Below are positions 39,451 to 61,239 of a stretch of DNA of 64,000 bases, one piece after another (position 1 is the first letter of the stretch; every line of letters starts with the position of its first letter). Below the pieces are notes generated by a model. The model did not search any database. It was not told the DNA's origin and saw nothing but the letters and a program-made list of their open reading frames with translations. A program made the translations under genes and the position numbers. The DNA is from Polytrichum commune (lineage: Eukaryota > Streptophyta > Polytrichopsida > Polytrichales > Polytrichaceae), in NCBI GenBank assembly GCA_950295325.1, contig OX485807.1:49878440-49942439 (forward strand), written 5' to 3'.

Positions 39451-41434
39451 GGGTGGAGTTCATCATTGGAATTCTAAATGATGTGCATGGGTGACTATGT
39501 AAGAAAACCCCCTATATACAATAAAATTATGAAGAAAAACAAATGTATGCATAATAACAGTATGCTAGATAATAGATTCATGTATTTGAACTAATTTTTT
39601 TTATTAGGTGTGATAAATGCCTCACTTTATATACAACATAGAAAATCATGAAACAAATTAGCCTTCATTACATATATACTCCACTTTCACTTTCCAATGA
39701 GAAAGTTATTCATCTTTAGGATTTAACTCATGATAATATGACCCTAGATCATACATCATTGAAATGCTAGGGTAATAATAGCATCTGGATCCCATCCATA
39801 TTTATCATCATGTGATCAATCGAGTCATAACTTCACTTTAGCGCATAGTCTTTTGATACACACACAACTTGATCTCCATATGCAAAGGGCGGGTTATTGG
39901 GTTCTAGATATTTTACCCACATATCACCAAACCCTTGGCACATTCTATAAACCCTTCCAACATACCAAGTCATGATAGTGAACGGCTATATAGATTTAGA
40001 TGGTCTCTTATGGCAATGGCACAATCCAGAGAGCAAAACTAAAGGGAGCCAAAGAGCACTCCAAGAGCCTCAAGTTTGTAGGGGAAAAAATAGAACAAAA
40101 AAGCAAAGCCTAACAAGAAATTTCATTTATCTCATGAGATTTAGATGTATTAATTTTTTTTTATCAAATCTAGATTAACATGTAAAATTAAATTTGATAA
40201 TGATGTCTAAATTTTGAGAGCATGTTTAAGTTTACTTAAATATGAGTGTCTAAAATATTAAATCTTTACTTTCTTATATTTTATCATAGCTTGGATGCCC
40301 AATATGGAATTTATCACCACACCACATGTCTAATTAGAAGTGTCATTTTAGAATTGTCACGTTACTTAACATAGCTTAGATGAATGTCTTTGTATCAACA
40401 AGTGTCTCATGCTATTGTTGTGCCACCTCCTCTGGTTGCTACCTAGTATTTTCCAATATCATGTATGTGGATTGATGAAAAATGGTGTGGGCCACAGTGA
40501 ATTAGATGTATAGAGCAAAATGTGACATGTGAACATTTTTCAGTTGTTTGTAAAACACTAAGAGACTAAAGAAAGGTTCTAGAAAGAATGTGAGATTAGA
40601 GAGCATTTCACATCTAAGGAGTTATGACTGTAAGAGAAATCAATTTTGATCATGAGGCTTCAACTACAAGTGATCATACGGAATTTGTACGTGTGGTGCC
40701 AAAAGCCCTCACCTCAAGAACGAAATAAAAATAGAAGAATATGAAGAGCTTTGACCATGATCGCTCAAGTAGGGTGTGGCTCTTTCATGACTCCAAACCA
40801 AGGTCATCATATATACAAAATAAATGTAATTACTTTCACATGTATTCATCATATTCTAAATACGTACACACTTCCAAGTACATGGAGTATGTACATACGG
40901 TACATATACATAGCATATGATTACATCTCAAGTACATATCATACACCATATACTTACACGTCCTCTATGGAAAACTAACAAAACTTTTGACTCTAATAGA
41001 GGGAAGCTAGCATGTGAGTGGTGAGCAATGAGCAACAAGATGTTCAACGATGCATTATTTTAAATAAGAATTGCAATACTCTTGATATATAAATGTTGGA
41101 TAAAATAAATTTAAGAGATAATAAATATTGAATTAGACCCCATTATCATGGATTATAAAGTGAATGGTCCATGGATTTGGGTACTTTATTGAAATGACCA
41201 ACACGCGTAAGAAATATTAAGTGCCTTATTGTGGAAAACAACCAAATATATCCAACATTAGTGTGCACTACATTTCTTGAGGGAAAACATTTATGTTTCT
41301 ATATCTTAAAAGTTTATGTCCATGGCCTTCACTATCACCACTCTAAGCTTGCTCCAACATACCCGTGATCTTGAGAAGATGCATCACCTCATTGTACTTG
41401 AGTGTGGGTGTGTGAATAACTTTTTAGTGGCATT
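39451..41434. other. Unassigned AT-rich DNA, about 2 kb
   Basis: A TACA/CATA-rich low-complexity tract lies at about 40840-40970. No gene, terminus or array otherwise recognised. Confidence 0.45.
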
Positions 41435-41877
41435 GTCAACGTTGCAAAAAACATGAACACATGATACAAATGTTTGCAGGAAACCCACCAACCCCTCTTC
41501 CCCACTATCATTGATGCCATTTTAACAAAGACAGTGCAAAGGCATTGTAGGTTATCTGCAATGGACACGAGGTAAGTCCTTTCCTCCTTGGAGATTGTGG
41601 TTATGATGCAACTAATTCCAGAATGACCACACAATACAATATATTGTATTGTATTGTACATACAATATATGTCAACGTTGGAAAAAAAACATGAACACAT
41701 GATACAAGTGTTTGCAGGAAACCCATCGACCCCTCTTCCCCACTTTCATTGATGCCATTCTAACAAAGACAGTGCAAAGGCATTGTGGGTTATCTGCAAT
41801 GGACACGAAGTAAGTCCTTTCCTCCTTGGAGACTGTGGTTATGATGCAACTAACTCCAGAATGACCACACAATACCC
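41435..41877 (+). repeat. Tandem duplication, 236-bp period, two copies
   Basis: 'gtcaacgttg' starts both units (41435 and 41671) and the ~200 bp that follow are nearly identical, with a few substitutions. Confidence 0.95.
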
Positions 41878-42115
41878 ATTCATATGTAATGTACTTTGCC
41901 ATATATTCCTATCCTTCGGCAATGGCACCGCCATATCACGAGGAATTGCCTTGGAAAACCTGGTAGCAAGGTGAGCACTTGGATTTGGTTGAACACAAAA
42001 ATGTGATTGAGGGATGGGAGGGTTGGGCATTGTACCCAAACGATGACATTGTGACATGGCCTTCCATTGTTGCAGTCAAGGACCAACATCCTCCAACGCA
42101 AAATCCTCCTCCAGT
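41435..42115 (+). pseudogene. PIF/Harbinger-type transposase remnant with a 236-bp tandem duplication
   Basis: A plus-strand frame reads NGHEVSPFLLGDCGYDATNS, resembling the second catalytic-aspartate block of DDE_Tnp_4 (Harbinger) transposases (pattern NG..I.PFLLGD.GY). The same frame continues to TAISRGIALENLVAR, resembling the RG.(I/V)..ENAFG..K.R helix that follows. About 236 bp including the first block are duplicated in tandem: 41435-41670 and 41671-41877. The first copy ends in an 'aatacaatatattgtattg' palindromic spacer. Stops and lost segments make it non-functional. The long minus-strand open frames here are antisense. Confidence is moderate because only two blocks are legible. Confidence 0.55.
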
Positions 42116-42356
42116 GAAAGGTTTGTTCTAACCTTCACTGGCCACATAATTGGAAGATTTGGCCAATCAAACATTTACTTCTTATTGATGCCCTTCACGC
42201 AATGGTTGATGTCATTTGTGCAGAACAAAAATTATGTAGCTAATTGGTTGTTGGAACAAAACTCCTTCTTTAAATTTTTATAAGTTGGCACGGATGTGCC
42301 ATATTTACTTCTCCCCACTTTGGCCTTGCAAGATGCCTTGTCTTGGTTTGCAAAGC

Positions 42357-42361
42357 CTGGC
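42357..42361 (+). other. 5-bp target duplication (CTGGC), left
   Basis: CTGGC directly precedes the TG of the solo LTR and is repeated at 44101-44105 directly after its CA. Confidence 0.85.
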
Positions 42362-44100
42362 TGTCAGCCATTACCCCCCACCCTTAAGCATCCTAATCCG
42401 GGTGAGAGCCTATGGCTCACATGTGTATGAATTACCCAATTACCACTTCTACTTCATTTCACACACCAGTGAACAAGGATAATGTGCAACCATTCTCAAT
42501 GATGAAAAATAAAACCACGCTTCAGCATTCATAAATGCCAGTATAAAAATCAGTCATCATCCAACCTCCTCTCTAATTACTCCACTATAGTTCAAGTGAA
42601 GGTATCAACTAAAGCCCCTACACACTAATTCCAGCTCCTAGCATTAATTTCTAAGGTTTGACTACCCCTAATCCTTGCTGCTTTGAGGCAGCGAGTGAAA
42701 ACCAAATCTTAATCACTGGCTCTCCCTAATTAATGAGCCTGCAAGGGCTAAAGGCTAGCTGCCTTCGGTGCTCACATCTCTGTTGTTGGGCAGTTGAACC
42801 CGTCATGGCCCGTCACTTCAGCAAAGGCTGTGCAGACGTCAGTTATTGAGGCTCTCGCTACCCACGACCTGTGTCCAACAATCTGGCGTCGCAAACTCCT
42901 TCTCCACCTAAATTCAGGTTAGCTACGCCCTGGCAATGCCCTTGTAGTTGAATGCTTCAGTGCTCTGTAGTAAGATTCACATTCTGGTTGTTGCTTACGT
43001 TTCTGTTGATTATTCAGGGCCTTAACCAATTGCACAATTGCCTGCATTCTTAGCCTTATGATTTTAACTCCGACCGAGGCTTCAAGAAGTAGCCAAGTCT
43101 TATGTTTTCCTACCTATATTCTTTCCTCCTTCTGAGTTTGCTTGATCGATGGCCAACCACCCTCGGAACTCCTCCAAAACCCACAGTTGATACAACTCAA
43201 TCCAGCATTGGTGCACATCGCACTTTGACCATTCCAACTCCCAGATCCCCATTCTTGCCCTGACCTGGCTGACCAATCTATCTTGTTCAGTGAAGAATTT
43301 CCGCAGCCAACAACCACCCCTTTTCGGCGCTCCTTCCCTCTCCTCCTTCCTACTTCTACTAGTATTTGTTGATATCCTACCGCCGCCAAGGTTCAGTTCC
43401 TAGCCGCATTCATCCTACCCCTTTAGCAGCTTCCGAGCTCGTTTGTGTCACCCTTCTAGCTCAAGAGCCAATTCGACTCACCTGCCTTCTCTCCGCGGCA
43501 GCCTTGCAGCCCTAGCTACACTTTGCGGAGAGACTTCCCCCGGCAGCTCCTCTGCTTTCTTGCCCACTGGCAGCAGTTCGACCGAACGTTTTCAGTTCAC
43601 CCTCCAATCAATTCGATGCCATTCCCACAAAACCTTCTGGCTCCCAACTACCAGGGCTCCACCTGCCTAACCGATCCCGAATGTTGCTTTGAGAGAGAGT
43701 GAACAGGGACCGCCTCTGCCCTTGAGGACCCCCCTCTCAGACCCTAACTACATTGTAGCTGACACTTGCCACCGGTTGGCTCCCGGCAACTTTAACCACC
43801 CATCTACCCACCTAAAACGAACAATAACTTAAGCTAAAACAAACACTACACTTGCATCACCTATGTGAACCTAATTAACACCCATTCAACTTGAACTAAT
43901 TCACTCATCTTTTTTGGTCTTTTAACTTTTAAATAACTTGTGTCTCTCGATCAACTCAACAAAACATAACTTAACACATAACACACTAAACTTAACCAAA
44001 TCTAAACTCTTGTCATTTCTAGCTACACACTCAACACCAATACTAAATCTTAATAGCTTTAAAGGTTAAGAAGACATGTGGGCGCGATATTGGGCTCACA
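42362..44100. mobile_element. Solo LTR, copy 1 (1739 bp)
   Basis: Begins TGTCAGCCATTACCCCCCAC and ends ATATTGGGCTCACA, i.e. TG...CA with an inverted TGTSAGSC / GGGCTCACA border. It is flanked by a perfect CTGGC duplication. Its borders and internal order match 52408-53816: 'cacccttaagcatcctaatc' near the start, a GC- and pyrimidine-rich middle, 'gagagagtga', and 'acatgtgggcgcgatattgg' at the end. No second LTR, primer site or gag-pol frame is attached, so it is read as the product of recombination between two LTRs. Open frames at 43114-43670 are a by-product of the GC-rich middle. Transcription orientation cannot be fixed. Confidence 0.85.
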
Positions 44101-44474
44101 CTGGCACTCTTTCTTCAATGCATAAGGCAATCTAGAAATGTGCCATTGGTATTTCAAACACTATGTCTCCAACACAATGGTGGTGTGTGACACCACATTC
44201 TCATCTTGTGTGAGGGATTCCTCAATGCATGCCCTAGTGGATCTTGTGTTAGGGCGGGGGATGGATTAGTTCACATTGTTTTGGATGATGAGAATCCAAC
44301 TTAGGCCCCGGTGGCAAGTCCGTCGTTTTGCTAGTTGATCCAAACAATTAAGATCACTCCAACGCACAATTTATGGTATTCATATCCTCTACCCTTGGGC
44401 AAGACCTCATAGCTTCTGTGAGGAGCTTGGAATGACCAGTATGAGTTGCAACTTTCAACGTCAATGAAACCTGC

Positions 44475-45900
44475 TCATGCCCTTTCCCCAAAGACCTGCC
44501 TTTCAACCACTTTTTGTATTAATTTATCCAAAATGGTGGACCAACGGAAGATGCATGTATGCTTGTGCACTTCCAGAGGAGCATTTTGATCACCATCACC
44601 ATAAACCTTCCTCAACACATTCCCTTTTGCATGTGAACTATCCGCCATGAAGCCCTTAAAATTCACCTTAAGGACATCGTTCTCAAGCATGACATCATTA
44701 AGATTCTCCCAAAACAAGGTTTGGGCATGGGCATCCTCCAATTGCATATCACAATATGCTATAGTGAGTACCTTGCAATGCTTATTGTCGTAGACATGAA
44801 ATGCCATCATCGTCCAAATGTGGAGGCGCTTTACATGGTGAAATGTTATACAAGAATTCTTCATGTCTCCACCATGTTGCATGCGCCTAATTAGATCGAC
44901 TCCACTTCCAACATAATCCACATACATCTTGAACACAAACACCTTATCTTTAGACTACCTTGGAAACCTACTTGAACCCCTAATGGTCTTTAAGCACCAT
45001 TATATTGTCCATGGAACTCATCCCACTTCGAATGAATCACTTGGATCTAGCCACAAAGTTCCTACTATTAGGGGAGGCTGGAGCGGAGAATTTATTCATG
45101 ACCACCTCCAACAAAGCTCCATGAGGATGATTCTTCTCCCCAAAAGAGGGGACTTGAGGATGTGATTATCCAAGAATTGCTTACTCGCAACAGTTGGAGT
45201 TTTAGACACCTCATTAGCAACACATTGGAAAGCCACATTTAGGGACTCACAACACATTGGACACATGGTGGTCATGCACACCTAGATGGATACACGCACG
45301 GGACTATCCAAAGATGCAAAATGAATGTATATAATCCTTACGTGACAAACATTGAGACAAATGGGAGGGGAACAACGAACTCTAAACCCCTATGGTGGCC
45401 CTTTACCCACAACAAATGCGGTGGGTGTAATGTTGATCCACTCGGTATTGTTGCAAGTTCCACCATTTTGCGACATAGTCCCATGTCAAGAATTGTTAGG
45501 GCATTGGAGATGGCCAATGCATGGAGACCTCTTGAAAGTCAAGCCAAATTCATTTTGGATGTTTTTTGTTTTGGTTTTGCACCAAACATGTCCATCATAA
45601 ATCTTGTCCATGCCATCCATTACCTTGCCGTAAGCATCATGACCCTTAATCTATATGTGGCAAAACAAAATGACATCCCTATCAAATGTACACGGGATGT
45701 CTATGACAATGTACACGGGATCTCTATGACAATGTTATCGAAGTCTATATTAGTTAGGTTAGACACGGATCTTCTACGACACTTGGTGATTTTGAGTGCA
45801 TTGAACATATGGACATTTGTTATGGTCAAAGTAGGATTAACTGGAGGTTTTTTGGAGTGTGTGATTTTTTGCAACAATCATATATCAAGCCTTGTAAGGA
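44475..45900 (-). pseudogene. Decayed transposase-like gene (unnamed plant DDE/MULE-like family)
   Basis: Reading the minus strand from 45900 downward, several frames join into one protein-like order: NKCPYVQC, DIPCTF, IKGHDAYGKVMDGMDK, DGHVWCKTKTKNIQNEFGLT, SPCIGHLQCPN, NGGTCNNTEWINITP, RACIHLGVHDHHVSN (about 45270), FQCVANEVSKTPT, ASKQFL. The longest intact part is 155 codons (44942-44475) with FHVYDNKHCKVLTIAYCDMQ, VNFKGFMADSSHA, VYGDGD and CIFRW. This order is familiar to me from uncharacterised repetitive plant proteins that look like DDE transposases, with the MADS aspartate as a candidate catalytic residue. At least five stops or frameshifts, and a 22-bp tandem duplication near 45690-45725, show it is dead. 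A minus-strand frame at 45885-46109 may be its N-terminus. The exact superfamily is an inference. Confidence 0.65.
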
Positions 45901-46109
45901 GAAGGTTCATTGGTAGGAAGTGCTTGTGCAAAAGATGCAAAAACAAATGAAGAAGAAGACTTAAATGAAGAAGTTGAATCCATAGCTAGGTCAACCACTT
46001 GGATGCCCTCATCATCAAAATAGCTAAGGAGCATGACATCTTCCGAACTGGACTTAATCTTTAACTCTATACACATCATTGCTTTGAACAGTTGTTGTGA
46101 TGGATTCAT

Positions 46110-48559
46110 TTTTCAACAACGTTGTTGACGAAGTCATCTACATCTCAGACTAACCTATGACTTTGTAAAAACCTCCATCCAATGTCCAAAATGAATCCAC
46201 ATCCTCTCTGGGCTTTTGAACCAATATTCTCCCACGCAACACTACAATGTCATGAAACAATTATTATTCCACATACATGGTGCCCAATCAAATGCCAAAT
46301 TTTAGACTAAGCAAAGTTCTTGAAGCACAACAACACCATCTAGACCTAAGGGGAGGGTGAAGGGAATGGAGCCTTCCACAACAACAAAAAAAACGATGCC
46401 ATCGATAGAGATTGTAATAAAACTATGTGTGTAAAGAATGGTGGAATGAACGAAGGCAACACATATGGATACAAAGTAAGAAAGATGTTAAATTCTTACA
46501 AGAGAACCACAATATTAAAAATATGATCATTGGTTGTATATATTTGGAATACATACTAGTAATCTCAGTGACTGAGAATGCTAAAGTATACATAATGAAC
46601 TCTAACAACTAATGATTGACCCAATTAGGAGGGGTACTCTAGTGGGCCAATATGATGATAAAGCCAAACTTGTGCACATGAACCAAATCAATAATGGAGT
46701 ATTGTGGGCTATTGTAAATAAATGTAGCGAAGGGTATAGAAGCACTTACTTTTGTTGATAAACTCTTTTGAAAGTGGACCAGAAGAGGCAGTGCAATTGG
46801 TGAATGTTTTGAGTCATATTGTTTTAAGTGTCAATGCAAGAGAGTGAGTATGGAACACCTATAAGGAGGAGAAGGAAGAAATGTGGTTTGCAATGTTTTA
46901 GGGCAAAATAACTCTAGAGGGCTAGCATGAGAAACAAATTGTGAACGGAATGAGAAGGAGACAACACCAACATTGCTAAACGCTATTGTTTAAGGACATC
47001 GAGTCACAACCATGTACTATTGGTGATGAAAATTTGGAGATCATGAGCAATACATTTGAAGAGTCATCATCGTTTAAGAACGAGGGGGAAACCCTACATT
47101 CAAAAAATGCAAGTTGTCAATCAAACCATTGTACGTATAATGAGTATTCATTGACTTTGACCAAGAGCTATAGGATTCTTTGCTCTATCATCCTCGTATG
47201 GTTTTTTTCCATCCATAACCTATTTTTCTTCAAATAGACTGAGTTTCAACAAAAACCCTTAAAGGAAAATGGGACCTTGTGGATAGTTTCCAACGAAATA
47301 AGACCTTTGGAATGTGGATTGTGAATGGTAGACTGAACCAATTACTCATTTCCACATTACGCATACATTTGAGGAGATGGGATCGAGAGGGGGGGGGGGG
47401 GGCTCACACCCAAAAACAAAACAAAAACAAAAAAAACAAAAAAAACAAGGGAAAGGGGCTCCAATCAATTACAATGGAGGACCATGGATCGAGACGAGCA
47501 AGGGAAGTGGAATGGGAATAGTGAATGGTGAATGGAGGGGGAGGGTGATGAACGTTGTGGGTAGCTCCTTTGCAATAAGCTAGGAAGACTCAAGATGAAA
47601 CACCATGTTAATTTATTATTACTTGAGAGCTACCGTGTCTCATTAACGTGCTCAATTTATTCACCTCCCCTCTTCCTATGATTTGAACATAATTGCTTTT
47701 GGAGTTAAGAGTTCTCAATCTTAGTCATCTTACGCTCAATGTAAGGCTCTTTGATTGTGGGGAGTAACTAAAATGAAATGAACTCTTGGAGGTGTTTCAA
47801 TATCCTCAAGTTCAATCCATATTTAATTAAGTTAAGTCACATTATATAACATCCTTAATTGGTAATGACAAAAAACTCTTCAAGGCTTCAATTAAGCTTC
47901 CAGAAGAAGGTCAAGTCTCTGGTTCACTTTATGACTTCCGTGATAATATGGCCTCTTAATGTTAATTCATTCATATAGGTACTCTCATCAATTCACATAA
48001 TCAATCTTTAACTACATTATAAGAGTATGTTAGCTTGCGCTATACTAAATCACTTTCTTGATATGTTGTAGTAATAAGCATAATTGAATGTTAATGTAAT
48101 AAGTGGTAGAAGGTGTATGTTCTTGTATTTTATTTAGCTCAAGTGTTACCACTTAGTATATAAATATGATACTTGTATTTATATATTAAATGCATATAAC
48201 AAGTTTAACTACATTGACTTAATATTTAATATAATACTCCACATATTCAACTAAAGATCTCCACAAGAATCTCACATGTGACTCAAAGATGAAACGAGTC
48301 TTCTGCAATCTCTCAAGTGATCAGTTCCGCAAAACACTCCAATTAGAGTAAGGAAGTTCTCATAATAATGAAATTCAAATGTAAATACTCCTTTTGAGGA
48401 GTTTCAACACAAGAGACGAGAAGAATAGAGTTGATCACTTAGTCTGTCAAGCTTCAATATGTGTTGAGGTTAACTTAATCATCATGTAAATTCAAATGTC
48501 ACAACCATCCTCCAAAACCTTGAGTGTTCATATCTCACCCTCACACTTTTCTCTTGGGC
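46110..48559. other. Unassigned DNA between the two decayed genes
   Basis: About 2.4 kb. It holds a G run at 47390-47401 followed by A-rich 'aaaacaaaaaaaac' and overlapping open frames at 46423-46612 on both strands without family motifs. If the flanking pseudogenes came from one transposon, this would be their shared 5' region. Confidence 0.35.
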
Positions 48560-49362
48560 GTTTATTCAAAAGCAAGGAGCATGTGTTGGCAAGGATGATG
48601 TCTATTTTAACTACACTACCATGAAGGACCAACTAATGAATGGCTTTGTTCCTTGCGGGGTGCTCGTGAGAAACGTTTAACCTTAATTCATATGTTTATT
48701 GAGGCTTTGTGTAAGCCTGGAGGGGTAGTCATGATGTCACAACTTCTAGATGTGGGTTTGTAATCTTGAGCTCTACCTTCATGTTTCAAAAGCTATAACA
48801 TAACATTTCAACACTTTAATGCTTCAATGCACATGTGATTAAAGTAGTTGTGTTTCCATTCAGGTGCCTTAGTCCACGCATGTCGTAAGAGCGGATGCCA
48901 TCTTGTTGGTTATGAGGCAAATGACATCATTTTCAATAAGGGTCTTCAACCACTTCGAGAGTCTTCATCACAAAACCCCCGTGGCCTATCATTCATCACA
49001 ACCACCTTCATTGGAGGACGATGATGAACCTCCTCGCAAAGTAGCCAAGAAATCACGTTTGAGTACGTGAGTTTTGCCCAACATATTTTAGTCGCTTGTT
49101 TTTTGGATGTGCTCGTGTTCATCTTAACTAACTCTCATTATGTATATGTATATGTATATGCAATGTCTACAAGATGATGGAGCAATTGTCATCCCCTCCC
49201 AAGTCATTATTGCTTCCAATGTACGTGGAAAGCATTGCTCTTGCACAAGCGGCCACATAAACACCCAAACCTCGCCCGAAGAATCACAAGTTTAGTCCCG
49301 ATGTGGAGACAATGTTAGATTTAAAGGCGTCGGAGGCCAATGGGGGGTATTTAGATAGTTGA
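48560..49362 (+). pseudogene. Methyltransferase-like gene, 3' part with two introns
   Basis: Exon-like frames give GAREKRLTLIHMFIEALCKP then GGVVM (about 48655-48735), and after a putative intron (48756-48863, acceptor ttccattcag) GALVHACRKSGCHLVGYEAN, then IIFNKGLQPLRES. The pattern of a PGG(V/I)V.D stretch, then GA...ACR.SG....G.EA(N/D), resembles Rossmann-fold DNA/RNA methyltransferases. A basic tail reads PPSLEDDDEPPRKVAKKSRL. A second putative intron (49067-49173, donor GTGAGT) leads to a last exon with YVESIALAQAAT and KPRPKNHKFSPDVETMLDL, ending at TGA 49360-49362. A frameshift near 48990 and an in-frame TAA at 49258-49260 disable it; the related copy at 59.4 kb has TTA there. The enzyme class is an inference; which base it methylated, if any, is unknown. 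Confidence 0.55.
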
Positions 49363-50695
49363 CAATAACATCCACCATATGATTGATTGGATATGTTTGG
49401 TTTGGAACGTGATTGTATTTGGCATTTCATCCCCCACTACTCATGTATAATCACTCACCGCTCACATGATAGCACTCCCTGGTGGAATATGTGGTGCTCA
49501 TAAACCAATGAGGAACCAATACTAATTGTAAACTCAAATTAATCCAAGAATGTTAATTATGGGATCTTCTTGAATGTCATCCAAGAATGATCTTCTTGTT
49601 TGAATATTATAAGAATGTGTCAAGTAACATGAATTACTTTGTTCTAAAGTTCCTTGAAAAACTTGTTCTCACACATGGTTGTCCAAATACACATAGGGTG
49701 ATTTCCCCAAACCCAAATGTGTAATTTAGCTCCAAATTGTTTGATTAGTAAATGAATTGTCTAAATTTTTATGCATCTCTCAAGAGTGGTACTATGGCTT
49801 GTCAATGTCTTGGTCGGAAGAAAATAATAATAATAATAATAAATAAATAAAATCATGAATTTGTACTTGGAGTGCCGTTAAGGATACATAGTAGTGGGTG
49901 TCATCATATATGCATCAAAAAATCTTGTTGAGCTACACTCTTTCTACTCTTTAGTGTGAGTGCTTATATATATATATATATTTATCAAATCATGGTGAAC
50001 TACTTTCAATTGAAGATTGTTTGTCGAAATCAAGTGTCTAGTCCTAATGATTGTCTTTAAAAATATTATGGTACTTTTGCATGCGTTAGTGTGTGGGCTT
50101 CTGCCACCACTTAACAAAGCATGCAATGTGTGTATAACTAACGCTCCCTTTGTAAGATCTTGAGGCTCCTTGCAAACCGTTTTGCCACCATTATTTTTAG
50201 GAGAGAGGGAATTATCATGTACAAGCATACATCTCATCCATCAACATAAAACCTTAACCTCCTTTAAGTAACTTGTAGCCAATTCATTTCGATAACCTTG
50301 AGTATACTAACTCGGGGTTTTAAAGTCAATTGTAGTGTCATAATCAATGAGAAATAGTAACCTTTGGGTTGCATGCTATTTCAGGGTTTTTCTGCTGGAT
50401 GAATGAGAGGAATGTTTGTATATGGCAGTTCGTCTCTTCCCATTCATAAGGTGCAAAATATTTTTTTAAATCTCTCAATATCATAAATTTAAGGTCATTT
50501 TAAATTGTGTCTTGCACACTACACTATATTCTCTAGTTTGTGGAATACTATGATGTTCTACTATGATGTGCATTGTGCACTACATCAAATCAAGCTCACT
50601 CAATTAACCTCGAAAGGTTAAAATAATTAAACCCACACTAAAGAGACAAACTTAAAGTGTAGCAAGGACCAATTATAATGAATTGTAATCTATCT
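49363..50695. other. 3' flank shared with 58.9-59.3 kb, then unassigned DNA
   Basis: 'catccaccatatgattg' (about 49368) and 'gctcacatgatagcactcc' (about 49462) recur, inverted, at 59265-59250 and 58890-58868, so homology of the two gene copies runs past the stop codon. Beyond about 49490 nothing is recognised except the (AAT)n/(AAAT)n run at 49826-49853 and a TA run at 49965-49982. Confidence 0.5.
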
Positions 50696-50699
50696 TGGT

Positions 50700-51065
50700 C
50701 CACCATTCCGAGCCCCGGGCTAGATCATATCTTCATTTGGTTGGGCTCCACCCCTCCCACGCCTCCTTCACTGCCCAGTCTTCCTGCTTGCACCTACATG
50801 GGAACTCTTCCTCATTGGGAACCAATGTGACAATACCTGGTCAAAAATTACAAATATTTGAGTTGACATCACTTTCATTATTCTAAAGTTAATTAATGGA
50901 GTTTCTTCACATGCCAAAAAAACTCAATGGCTTGTCACGTTGGTTCCCAACAGGGAAGAGTTCCCACGTAGGTGCGGGCAAGAAGACCGGGCAGTGAAGG
51001 AGGCATGGGAGGGGCAGGGCCTAGCTGAATGAAGATGTGATCTAGCCTGGGGCCCATTCCGACAA
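50700..51065. mobile_element. Long inverted repeat (fold-back element), arms about 135 bp
   Basis: The left arm (50700-50834) and right arm (50929-51065) are reverse complements at roughly 80-85 percent by eye, with a loop of about 94 bp. Paired landmarks are 'ttcactgcccagtcttc' with 'gaagaccgggcagtgaa', and 'tgggaactcttcc' with 'ggaagagttccca'. The arms are GC-rich against an AT-rich loop. Transcribed, it would form a strong hairpin. No coding frame is credible. Confidence 0.9.
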
Positions 51066-58075: not shown

Positions 58076-58864
58076 CCAACACCGGGCCTGATTGGTGCCA
58101 AGTCGGCGATTCTTTTCAAGGCAAGACACACAAATATATATATACATTTATATACATTTATATACATATATATACATATATATTTGTGTGTGTGTGTATA
58201 TATTTATTGTCTTTGCAACAAGAAGCCTCGCTTTTCCCTGATTGGGATCTGGCGTTCATGATGGCGTATCTGATGATGCGCTACTCATCGAGCGCCTTCG
58301 TTACGCCGGCCATTAATGTGCTCAAGGCCCCGAATATCCCCACATAGTAGAATCCAAAATAAAAATTGCCCCCTCATTATTCGGTGGTTGCCAATACCCC
58401 GCTGCCTGCTTGCTAGCGGCTTCACCGCGGCCTGAAAGGGGAAGGGCATAACTCCTTTATGTTACATTCACGGGCAGGGATAGCTCACCTCGCCCAAAAG
58501 GTCGAGGGGGGCACGTGAGACTTATTACGGTGTCCACGTCCCGTATACAAAAATACAAGGAGTATTTAAGTATATTGAATGTGGTGTTTTTAATAAATAT
58601 GCGGATGCGGTGGGGGGAAGGAGGAGTGGGCCGGGGCATGCAATAGAGCGAGCGAGTTGAGGCCGGACTGGCAACGAGGCGGGGACATGTCCTTAATAAG
58701 TGAAGTGAAGTGCGTGTAGGGTGGGTGTGGCACAACAAGAATATTTTGGACGCGGCCAACCAACTTTTGGAGCCCTCCTTTCGACTTCAAGCCTGTATGA
58801 GTTCACCGTCATGGGTGGCCGGCTTAGTTTGCGGGGGGTACACCAAGTGTACCTCTCGTCCGAG
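58076..58864. other. GC-rich block of unknown origin
   Basis: After a TATACA-type low-complexity run (58132-58206), bases 58215-58870 are markedly GC-rich. A short frame at about 58227-58330 reads WDLAFMMAYLMMRYSSSAFV and ends in a stop; it looks like an exon-sized hydrophobic segment but I cannot name it. The remainder has no recognised family. Confidence 0.3.
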
Positions 58865-59441
58865 GAGTGCTATCATGTGAGCATTGAGCGGTGGTGAGTG
58901 GTAACAAACACACGAGCAGCGGAGGAAGGAAAATGTTTGGAAATACACCCACTAGTATCTTATATATGTTGTGGGGTTTTGGCATCATTCATGTCATGTG
59001 TTTTATGGGTAAGTGAGTGGGGAGTGCTAACGAATGCCTTAGTTCATTTTTAGATTGAGCATCCGGAAGATTGTCGTGGGGGTTCCATGACAAGTTTTAA
59101 TATTATTGTTGTATTCAACATCAAAAATAAAATGTAATCACAATCCAAGTGAGTGGGCTCACACATTTTAATATTGTTAGAATGATAAATGCAATCACAT
59201 TCCAAATGAAACATATTCGATCCAATAAAATCCAACCCAATCCAATCCAACCCAATCATATGGTGGATGGTTTTGTCAAGTGTGTAAATGCCCCCCCCCC
59301 CCCTTTGGCCTCCAATCCCTCTAAATCGAACACCGTCTCCACATTGGGATTAAACTTGCGATTCTTTGGGCGAGGTTTGGATGTTAATGTGGCCACTTGC
59401 GCAAGAGCAGTGCTTTCCGCGTACATGGGAAGCAACAATGA
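58865..59441 (-). pseudogene. 3' end of a second methyltransferase-like gene copy
   Basis: On the minus strand 59441-59256 reads MYAESTALAQVATLTSKPRP then KNRKFNPNVETVFDLEG, a close match to the last exon at 49174-49362 (YVESIALAQAAT, KPRPKNHKFSPDVETMLDL). The TAA nonsense codon of that copy is TTA here. Homology continues past the stop ('catccaccatatgattg', 'gctcacatgatagcactcc'). The rest of the gene is cut off at 59442, exactly where a GGGCCACTT MITE-type end begins. Confidence 0.7.
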
Positions 59442-60084: not shown

Positions 60085-60960
60085 ATGCAAGCATTGGCAC
60101 TAAGTGGAGAATGGGAAAATGCCTTGATTTTGAACATTTGCTTTGAGAGTATGAAGATGAGTGATTGTAGTGTGTGGGGATTTGAGAGAAATATAAGGTT
60201 CACGGATAGTTTTTTATTAGGTTCTTTCACGAAAAAAAATTCAAACAAAGAAGTCGTGTATGTCATAATACATTCAAGTTTCTTTGTAGAGGTTGGTCAT
60301 ATTTGCACAAGAAAAATTTCCATATGAAAGAAACAATTTGAATTGAGAATAAAGTTGCAATGTCATTACAAATGTTTAAGACTGGGAAAACCTTGTGTAC
60401 CGTAGGAGAGGTATATGGGGTGGCTGAAAGTATAATTTTAGAAATAGTGAGAATTTTTTGTAGATTGGTGAGAATTGATTTGCAACGGGATTTGTATAAT
60501 TTCCAAATCTAGCTCAGTTTAGGATTTTAGAACAAGAATTTGAAGCCCTTCACGAGATTCCTCATATTATAGGAGCAATCGATAAATCTCACATTCCAAA
60601 TTTTATACCTATAATCAGAGGAGAAGATTAAAAGTGTCGAAAGTCATTTCAATCATATTTATTACAAAATATACTTCATAAAAAATGTGTATTTTGGGAT
60701 TACGAATTTGATGGGCTAGAAATATGCACAATTGGACATTGGTTCAACTAACCAAAGTTGAAAGAGAGATTGCATGAAAGGTAAATTCTTATCTTATAAG
60801 CTGGTTTGAGATTGTGTATATCCAATGTGGCTATGGATTTATAGCCCATTCAAAGGTTGTGTGTAAAGCTCAACTACCTCCACTTGTTCATAGGGTTGAC
60901 CATATCATTAGTGACTTAAAGTGTCGTCCAAATTAAGATGACTAAACTATCTAATCTCCT
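60085..60960 (+). pseudogene. PIF/Harbinger transposase pseudogene
   Basis: Harbinger elements move with a DDE transposase (DDE_Tnp_4 family). Plus-strand frames read in family order: FERNIRFTDSFLLGSFTKK (about 60182-60240), TGKTLCTVGEVYGVAES (about 60382-60432), FCRLVRIDLQRDL, EFEALHEIPHIIGAIDKSHI (about 60537-60597; the D of GAID is the first catalytic aspartate), CRKSFQSYLLQN, KCVFWDYEF (about 60684) and KERLHER. The second D block and later E region are poorly kept. At least four frameshifts or stops are present, including a stop just before the catalytic block. It could once have mobilised the TAA-flanked GGGCC MITEs in the window; that link is inferred from superfamily, not shown. Confidence 0.88.
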
Positions 60961-61239
60961 TGTCGTTTGTTGTTATCTATTCTTCATTGTCTTTCCTTGT
61001 TGTATTGGTAGGTGCCTTCATTCTTCTTTTAAAAGCTCCTCTACCTTATATTCAACATGATGGACTTTTAAGTATAACTTAAAAGTCCTCTTTTGTTGTA
61101 ATGAACTCCCTTCTTGATATCTCTTCAAGTAGTTTCATTTGATCAAGTGTTCTTTCTATTCTATCAACTTGTTTGTTTGTAACTTTCTTCTTGTGTTGAG
61201 TTTCTTCATGTGCCGCAATTGTCTCTTTAAGTTCAAGTG
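60961..61239. other. Unassigned T/C-rich DNA
   Basis: T- and CTT-rich sequence with no recognised feature, grading into the degenerate repeat tract. Confidence 0.4.

Follow-up and report, generated by a model that had tools for sequence, protein, structure and literature searches.

Between positions 40,999 and 49,480 of the window (the whole 64,000-nucleotide stretch of Polytrichum commune DNA analyzed here) lies a decayed DNA transposon of 8.5 kb, which carries a transposase-like gene on the minus strand and, divergently arranged, a methyltransferase-like gene on the plus strand. The original prediction had guessed at a single transposon holding both genes, and this was borne out by common termini, by duplicated target sites around some of the copies and by a recurrent divergent layout. 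Its limits of 44,475–49,362, however, were too narrow, as terminal repeats were found at both ends of the longer unit. The left terminal inverted repeat (40,999–41,019, plus strand; GAGGGAAGCTAGCATGTGAGT), 3.5 kb to the left of the limit first drawn, matched the left end of other copies at 20 of 21 positions and is followed by TGAGC-type subterminal repeats. The right one (49,460–49,480, minus strand; AGGGAGTGCTATCATGTGAGC, read from the end inward) matched at 19 of 21 positions the right-end motif, from which the left end differs at 4 of 21. These imperfect 21-bp repeats are common to the window copy and its relatives in the same genome, and TGAGC-type repeats adjoined both ends in the copies that were printed and inspected by eye. 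In the 408-Mb genome, the left-end motif occurred at 144 places with two mismatches or fewer, against one for the reversed pattern, and the right-end motif at 82 places with at most one mismatch, against none.

The same right end was found in 18 of 20 fetched loci, with different flanks except in L071 and L072, which have nearly all their sequence in common; it was absent from L065 and L075. Independent copies with common ends thus occur at unrelated sites, as in DNA transposons with terminal inverted repeats. Insertion of MULE-type elements duplicates about 9–11 bp of target. Among ten copies examined, exact duplications of 9–10 bp, a size that fits this range, flanked four (L060, L061, L093 and L094, the last two read by eye), a duplication with one mismatch flanked two (L067 and L073), and none was found around L063, L068, L076 or the window copy; the right end contains a run of C that blurs the exact limits. 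The family has two subfamilies. Among the 40 scored of 155 candidates, young copies of subfamily 2 occupied at least 22 places besides the query, with 88–96% identity over all or nearly all of the 1,056-bp query. A second element of the family is also present in the window as a fragment from its right end (58,862–59,441, minus strand), identified by its match to the right end of the window element: positions 49,204–49,406 match 59,441–59,231 on the minus strand at 82%, and 49,454–49,478 and 58,864–58,888 form a further common end. The second copy of the methyltransferase-like 3′ end and its flank, reported in the original prediction, is therefore a real repeat, but that other element is represented by its right end only. 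No relatives outside this genome were confirmed in viral_contigs or genome_contigs with the transposase or with the methyltransferase alignment, and tblastn against phages gave chance-level matches only (E 7 to 9).

The transposase body (44,101–46,372, minus strand), delimited by blastn to L063 and L067, contains stops, frameshifts and a 23-bp tandem duplication (45,685–45,735, minus strand), and lacks about 0.47 kb present in L063 and L067 near 44.5 kb. The peptides CIHLGVH, ANEVSKTPT and FKGFMADS were found in broken frames on the minus strand at about 44.5–46.1 kb, in agreement with the decayed gene and the motifs first described. A 159-aa open frame at 44,478–44,954, the second longest in the window, matched 8 of 20 other loci by tblastn; the longest, of 235 aa, runs antisense to the broken transposase gene. 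The C-terminal part of the transposase lay beyond the earlier limits, at 41,102–42,325 (41.1–42.3 kb, minus strand; 69–72% to L063/L067 by blastn). In other copies this part reads CTCPDF...SCKHLYYVF, which is SWIM-like, with a CxC...CxH pattern near the C-terminus; a stretch typed from related copies matched the Pfam SWIM profile with E 0.03 (65-aa piece) and 0.46 (longer piece), both below the cut-off. The stretch between the two segments (42,326–44,101) was covered by none of 20 other loci, forms a break in the element alignment and is probably a later insertion.

The transposase gave no match above threshold in Pfam, PHROGs or PDB, either by sequence or by alignment, and the window piece gave none in NCBIfam. 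The MULE profile PF10551 was found at 142 listed places (150 of 271 candidates scored), none of which, on comparison by eye, fell at the 40 listed transposase places. No profile searched thus confirmed the earlier label of DDE-like, and the assignment to the DDE type rests on motif resemblance and on the size of the target duplication. Mosses and other land plants have transposases of like appearance, annotated as hypothetical proteins, so parts of the family may be catalogued.

The plus-strand, intron-containing gene of the original prediction was found at 48,568–49,362, its exons separated by intron-like gaps. Exon 8 (48,568–48,751), which lacks its first part, covers the first half of motif X/I (...EALCKPGGVV.DVTTS) and is frameshifted; exon 9 (48,864–49,064) covers the second half of motif I (GALVHACRKSGCHLVGYEAN...); and the last exon (49,174–49,362; MMEQLSSPPKSLLLPMYVES...) has one in-frame stop. 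The limits of the two introns, at about 48,752–48,863 and 49,065–49,173, were read by eye, and the first intron has the same position in relatives. The exons upstream of exon 8, which make up most of the gene, are missing from the window copy: at the site of the relatives' exons E1–E7, an alignment gap (46,373–48,567) spans sequence without homology to the interior of other copies. About 0.2 kb of it, at 47,546–47,755, matches sequence beside L066, outside the element, and 120 nt at 48,456–48,572 match L062 in reverse. When differences between the two tails within the window were sorted by codon position, no coding signal emerged (4, 8 and 7 differences at positions 1, 2 and 3). This result speaks against the reading adopted here and is outweighed only by the genome-wide comparison.

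In that comparison, a methyltransferase-like gene lay within 12 kb of the transposase, in divergent layout, at 18 of the 40 listed transposase places (the window included), against a mean of 0.055 and a maximum of two pairs in 1000 random trials. Pairing in the opposite orientation was seen at 1 of the 40. At 22 of them, none of the 40 methyltransferase-like places listed lay within that distance in divergent layout. Conversely, of 20 methyltransferase loci fetched together with about 8 kb of upstream sequence, 9 had the transposase in that upstream stretch. That the same pair recurs genome-wide indicates that the arrangement is more than chance. The idea that both genes would be found together between common termini thus held: copies have the same ends, some have target-site duplications, and the divergent layout recurs at these 18 places.

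The accessory gene evolved under purifying selection, as supported by dN/dS. Median values per exon were 0.26–0.60, and in six of the seven exons of subfamily 1 they were well below 1 and below those of both shifted frames:.29 against.68 and 1.50 in E1,.40 against.71 and.92 in E3,.26 against.54 and 1.33 in E4,.35 against.70 and 1.10 in E7,.28 against.81 and.90 in E8, and.47 against.97 and.94 in E9. Exon E6 showed no frame contrast (.60 versus.58 shifted). In subfamily 2, the pooled value was.54 versus.83 and.86 shifted. MULE-type elements are well known to capture genes, and stops in many copies would suit a host or viral gene captured passively and without function for the element. However, given the dN/dS values and the presence of the gene in two subfamilies about 50% diverged, we regard passive capture as very improbable. 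Rather, a gene kept by selection while the element multiplied in two subfamilies appears to matter to the life cycle of the element.

Between the subfamilies, the transposase pieces T1 and T2 are 85–94% identical, whereas the methyltransferase-like exons E6–E9 are only 38–51% identical. Such fast divergence is as expected of a specificity factor. It would be unusual for a core partner of the transposase, and for this reason we think it unlikely that the accessory protein belongs to the transposition machinery itself, as a structural or DNA-binding subunit that would recognize ends or pair strands and play no part in silencing, even though it adjoins the transposase in the same layout at 18 of 40 listed places and the repeated TGAGC units at the ends are putative binding targets.

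Profile searches, which yielded nothing above threshold for the transposase, did support a predicted beta-class amino-methyltransferase fold of the N6_N4_Mtase type for the accessory protein. The spliced exons of L060 matched a DNA methyltransferase in PHROGs with E 1.3e-6 (a further match had E 4.5e-5), and profile-profile comparison with hhalign gave E 3.7e-5, against 0.059 or worse for each of 20 column-shuffled controls. The PDB methyltransferases 9c3u/8urk were matched with E 0.007 by the window piece and with E 0.075–0.09 by L060. The motif X/I region lies on the C-terminal side of the catalytic domain, as in the beta class. Pfam N6_N4_Mtase stayed below its cut-off (E 0.014), and window exon 9 alone had no methyltransferase match in PHROGs. 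In an unguided scan, the best site in the window was the methyltransferase exons (score 20.2). An equal score was obtained in 3 of 100 random windows, and a reversed control came near it with 19.7, so we counted the scan as supporting only. The methyltransferase-like call was in this way backed by PHROGs and the profile-profile comparison, and more weakly by the scan. Chorismate mutase, the sole NCBIfam match to the window piece, is unrelated and far below the cut-off (E 0.018). A ParB-like reading of the GNHR stretch in exon E1 reached only E 0.066, with nothing convincing in Pfam or PDB, and is kept as a lead.

The motif I region is conserved in both subfamilies (DVTAST/GASVHACR and DAYAST/GASIHACR), although the family has STG where viral enzymes read GSG, one glycine being replaced. 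At the position of motif IV, which we assigned by pattern and spacing since hhalign left it unaligned, PPY, PPF or PPW was present in none of 22 readable copies. Instead of the (D/N/S)PP(Y/F/W) expected of the beta class, 12 of the 22, tallied by hand, have DLPE, which occurs in both subfamilies. In spliced L060, the distance from DLPE to motif I is 171 residues, inside the range of 155–175 that separates DPPY or SPPY from motif I in 12 enzymes of phages or viral contigs. This spacing, the conserved motif I region and purifying selection on E7–E9 would agree with an active DNA methyltransferase of unusual catalytic motif, which might mark the DNA of the element (4mC or 6mA) for recognition by the transposase or against silencing. 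Yet the altered motif IV in 22 of 22 readable copies makes methylation by the accessory protein itself doubtful, and the replaced glycine also weighs against it; we judge an active enzyme improbable. The occurrence of DLPE in both subfamilies leads us to prefer an accessory protein that binds.

The sequences are best read as a MULE-like transposon with a conserved accessory protein of predicted methyltransferase fold. We lean, with somewhat better than even confidence, towards a dead DNA transposon whose divergent accessory protein would have served anti-silencing in the manner of VANC rather than as an active methylase. Such an element would transpose most likely by a DDE-type transposase and insert with a 9–10 bp target duplication, its imperfect inverted repeats and TGAGC-rich subterminal repeats serving as ends. 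The multi-exon gene divergent from the transposase would supply a beta-class amino-methyltransferase fold that mainly binds DNA or AdoMet, may recognize the ends of its own element, and may counter or redirect host silencing. By analogy, a role in silencing or self-recognition is the most likely one for this protein, and VANC of the VANDAL elements, which strips methylation from the element that encodes it, would be the nearest mechanism. More tentatively, and with less confidence than we place in the general reading, a pseudo-methyltransferase with a fixed DLPE may have become a fast-evolving, element-specific anti-silencing factor, the strategy of VANC having been invented independently from a methylase, in a transposon superfamily that is perhaps undescribed.

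Related proteins occur in other settings. DIRS/Ngaro retrotransposons carry a DNA N-6-adenine-methyltransferase domain and thus resemble the present family as eukaryotic mobile elements with a domain of amino-methyltransferase type, but they are tyrosine-recombinase retrotransposons, whereas here a divergent multi-exon gene stands beside a DDE-like transposase. The bacterial-type N4-cytosine methyltransferase of bdelloid rotifers is likewise an N6_N4_Mtase-type protein in a eukaryote; it is a host gene and is not known to be carried by a transposon, whereas the gene described here sits in one. VANDALs count as MULEs, in contrast to the lack of a match of the present transposase to the MULE profile. 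In Arabidopsis, VANDAL elements combine a transposase gene with the anti-silencing accessory gene VANC, and, in the excerpt of the source used here, share with this family short repeated motifs in noncoding regions (here of the TGAGC type), degenerate terminal repeats and accessory systems that diversify (PMC10398659). VANC is not described in that excerpt as methyltransferase-like (PMC10398659), and the likeness to the protein studied here is one of features. Retrotransposons of dinoflagellates and charophytes, according to an excerpt of their description, acquired cytosine methyltransferases of the C5 class, for which de novo methylation of CG has been demonstrated; they too are mobile elements encoding a DNA-methyltransferase-type protein, but of C5 type, whereas here a DNA transposon would encode a beta-class amino-methyltransferase fold with an altered motif IV (PMC5890265). 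A literature search of titles and the beginnings of abstracts found no description of this transposon family. To our knowledge, few transposons have a silencing-related gene of their own. Here a DNA transposon kept a gene of predicted methyltransferase fold under selection in two subfamilies, with the active-site motif altered in a shared way. How a DNA transposon can be active despite host methylation, and whether an altered methylase can act as an anti-silencing factor, thereby become testable questions, and the existence of young copies makes an experiment realistic.

The two decayed head-to-head genes of the original prediction are both present: the predicted peptides occur on the minus strand between 44.5 and 46.1 kb, in frames that are broken, and the plus-strand gene, at 48.57-49.36 kb, has gaps that resemble introns. 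The second copy of its methyltransferase-like 3' end was found at 59231-59441 (-) with 82% identity, and in both copies the match breaks off at the same 25-nt end. The genome used for comparison comprised 407.8 Mb, in which the window is C5:49878440-49942439. The copy of the element in the window spans 40999-49480 and consists of the transposase C-terminus (41102-42325), an unshared stretch (42326-44101), the transposase body (44101-46372), a region up to 48567 without homology to the interior of other copies, where E1-E7 of the accessory gene lie in relatives, and finally that gene's three terminal exons, ending at 49362.

The 3' part of the plus-strand gene scored at 40 places in the genome, itself included, of 81 candidates, and 20 of these were fetched, each with about 8 kb upstream. 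The transposase lies upstream on the opposite strand in nine of the 20 loci, placed by tblastn at L061, L063, L067, L068, L070, L073, L076 and L078, and by DNA comparison at L077; at a tenth locus, L060, it lies 9.4 kb upstream. The block shared among the fetched loci has sharp ends, the left being GAGGGAAGCTAGCATGTGAGC and the right, read inward, GGGGGGTGCTATCATGTGAGC; by our own count, the two agree at 17 of 21 positions. The left-end motif, with at most two mismatches, occurs at 144 places in the genome, as compared to one for the control, and the right-end motif, with at most one mismatch, at 82 as compared to none. Among 10 copies examined, exact target-site duplications flank L060 and L061 and, as judged by eye, L093 and L094; duplications with one mismatch flank L067 and L073, and none was seen at L063, L068, L076 or the window copy (window flanks inspected by eye). 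Moreover, as judged by coordinates, 18 of the 40 transposase places on the list, among them that of the window, have a correctly ordered and oriented accessory gene no more than 12 kb away, against a random expectation of 0.055 (mean; maximum 2 in 1000 trials). It is in the opposite orientation at one place and, at two more, in the right orientation but 20-24 kb away; 22 of the 40 have no listed partner in the 12-kb range. Because only the best 40 of 319 transposase candidates and the best 40 of 81 and of 155 accessory candidates were compared, the 18 pairs and the two distant pairs are lower bounds. We conclude that the two genes belong to one mobile element, as the idea of an undescribed transposon had it.

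For the transposase, no profile library gave a match above threshold, the nearest being a sub-threshold SWIM match (E 0.03). The size of the target duplication, the SWIM-like end and the overall motif order, which we take to be MULE-like, suggest that the transposase is that of a divergent MULE or of an unnamed superfamily. The MULE profile PF10551 has 142 listed places (150 scored of 271 candidates), none of which, compared by eye, overlaps the 40 listed transposase places of the family; thus, ordinary MULEs coexist with it.

The methyltransferase likeness of the accessory gene is supported by PHROGs and by profile-profile comparison. The joined window-copy pieces matched two PHROGs DNA methyltransferase families (E 1.3e-4 and 2.7e-4). 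In nine reversed or shuffled controls of these pieces, no methyltransferase was hit and no E-value fell below 0.1; window exon 9 on its own likewise hit no methyltransferase. The spliced exons of L060 matched at E 1.3e-6. When compared with a profile of 12 phage or viral-contig enzymes, the motif X/I region aligned at E 3.7e-5 (probability 71%), whereas 20 column-shuffled controls gave 0.059 or worse; the motif IV region was left unaligned. A PDB methyltransferase matched the window piece at E 0.007 and L060 more weakly (0.075). Pfam N6_N4_Mtase stayed below cut-off each time (0.066 and 0.014), and the sole NCBIfam match was unrelated and far below cut-off (E 0.018). When a phage motif profile was run unguided across the whole window, with tolerance for frameshifts and introns, the best site was 48668-48937, with a score reached in 3 of 100 random windows and nearly so by one reversed control. 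The first accessory exon found (L060:4738-5268, and in ten other copies) has a conserved FYVWEGNHRVTAWLRHI stretch that is weakly ParB-like (PHROGs E 0.066); this exon was undetected in L093 and L094.

Motif IV, the catalytic (D/N/S)PP(Y/F/W) of beta-class amino-methyltransferases, is altered in the accessory protein. Its expected position, 171 residues before motif I (155-175 in the 12 phage or viral-contig enzymes), is occupied by DLPE. The motif was readable in 22 copies, 10 distinct ones of subfamily 1 (L071/L072 counted as one) and 12 of subfamily 2, after exclusion of L076 (gap at the motif) and of L061 and L062 (region missing). By hand tally, 12 of the 22 have DLPE, the others being one or more changes away (DLPK and DLLE, two each; NLPG, NLPE, DFPE, YSPE, VLP* and DLLK); PPY, PPF or PPW was found in none. 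We take DLPE to be a fixed feature and not decay, because it is common to both subfamilies even though half of the accessory protein's residues differ between them.

Subfamily 2 is represented by L093 (6.35 kb) and L094 (6.39 kb), which have both ends and share about 95% identity along most of the element. In the transposase pieces they are 85-94% identical to L061/L063, whereas the exons of their accessory gene, taken one by one, reach no more than 38-51% identity to those of L060, and E1, E3 and E4 were undetected. Subfamily 2 is young, since at least 22 places besides the query copy (of the best 40 scored) match the full or nearly full query at 88-96% identity.

Both genes carry a selection signal. 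Median pairwise dN/dS in subfamily 1 (true frame/two shifted frames; 8 to 21 sequences per piece) was.29/.68/1.50 for E1,.40/.71/.92 for E3,.26/.54/1.33 for E4,.35/.70/1.10 for E7,.28/.81/.90 for E8 and.47/.97/.94 for E9, and.48/.90/.74 and.39/.48/1.15 for the transposase pieces; E6 showed no contrast between true and shifted frames (.60/.58/1.13). Insertions relative to the reference copy were ignored, and pairs with too few sites or synonymous differences outside 3-60% were dropped, as was the pair L071/L072. All subfamily-2 pairs pooled (12 copies) gave.54/.83/.86. Many copies have stops; the three exons that were read in L099 and L100, of subfamily 2, are free of them. The two tails inside the window show no codon bias between them, as expected of two dead copies.

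By analogy, the accessory protein may act on silencing or self-recognition. VANC proteins of Arabidopsis VANDAL elements are described as binding repeated noncoding motifs and removing methylation from their own VANDAL family (PMC10398659). Like that system, the moss element has repeated TGAGC units at its ends and pairs a fast-changing accessory protein with a conserved transposase. To our knowledge, the fold of the moss protein differs from that of VANC, so that, if its role were VANC-like, the element would represent an independent route to the same strategy.

Nearly the entire 9.9 kb of L071 (C37, a 25-kb contig) and L072 (on the chromosome-size contig C1) is common to both, which is a recent duplication or a redundant assembly contig. 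In the window, a 238-bp unit is repeated 1.9 times (94% matches) at 41434-41875, within the transposase C-terminal region, and the longest open frame (235 aa; 45243-45950 +), antisense to the broken transposase, is probably due to chance. Directly to the right of the element, at 50712-51053, lies an inverted repeat whose arms, of 122 nt each, are 84% complementary and spaced by 98 nt. Finally, 60300-60970 (+), read by eye (IPHIIGAIDKSHIP...), resembles a decayed PIF/Harbinger nuclease.
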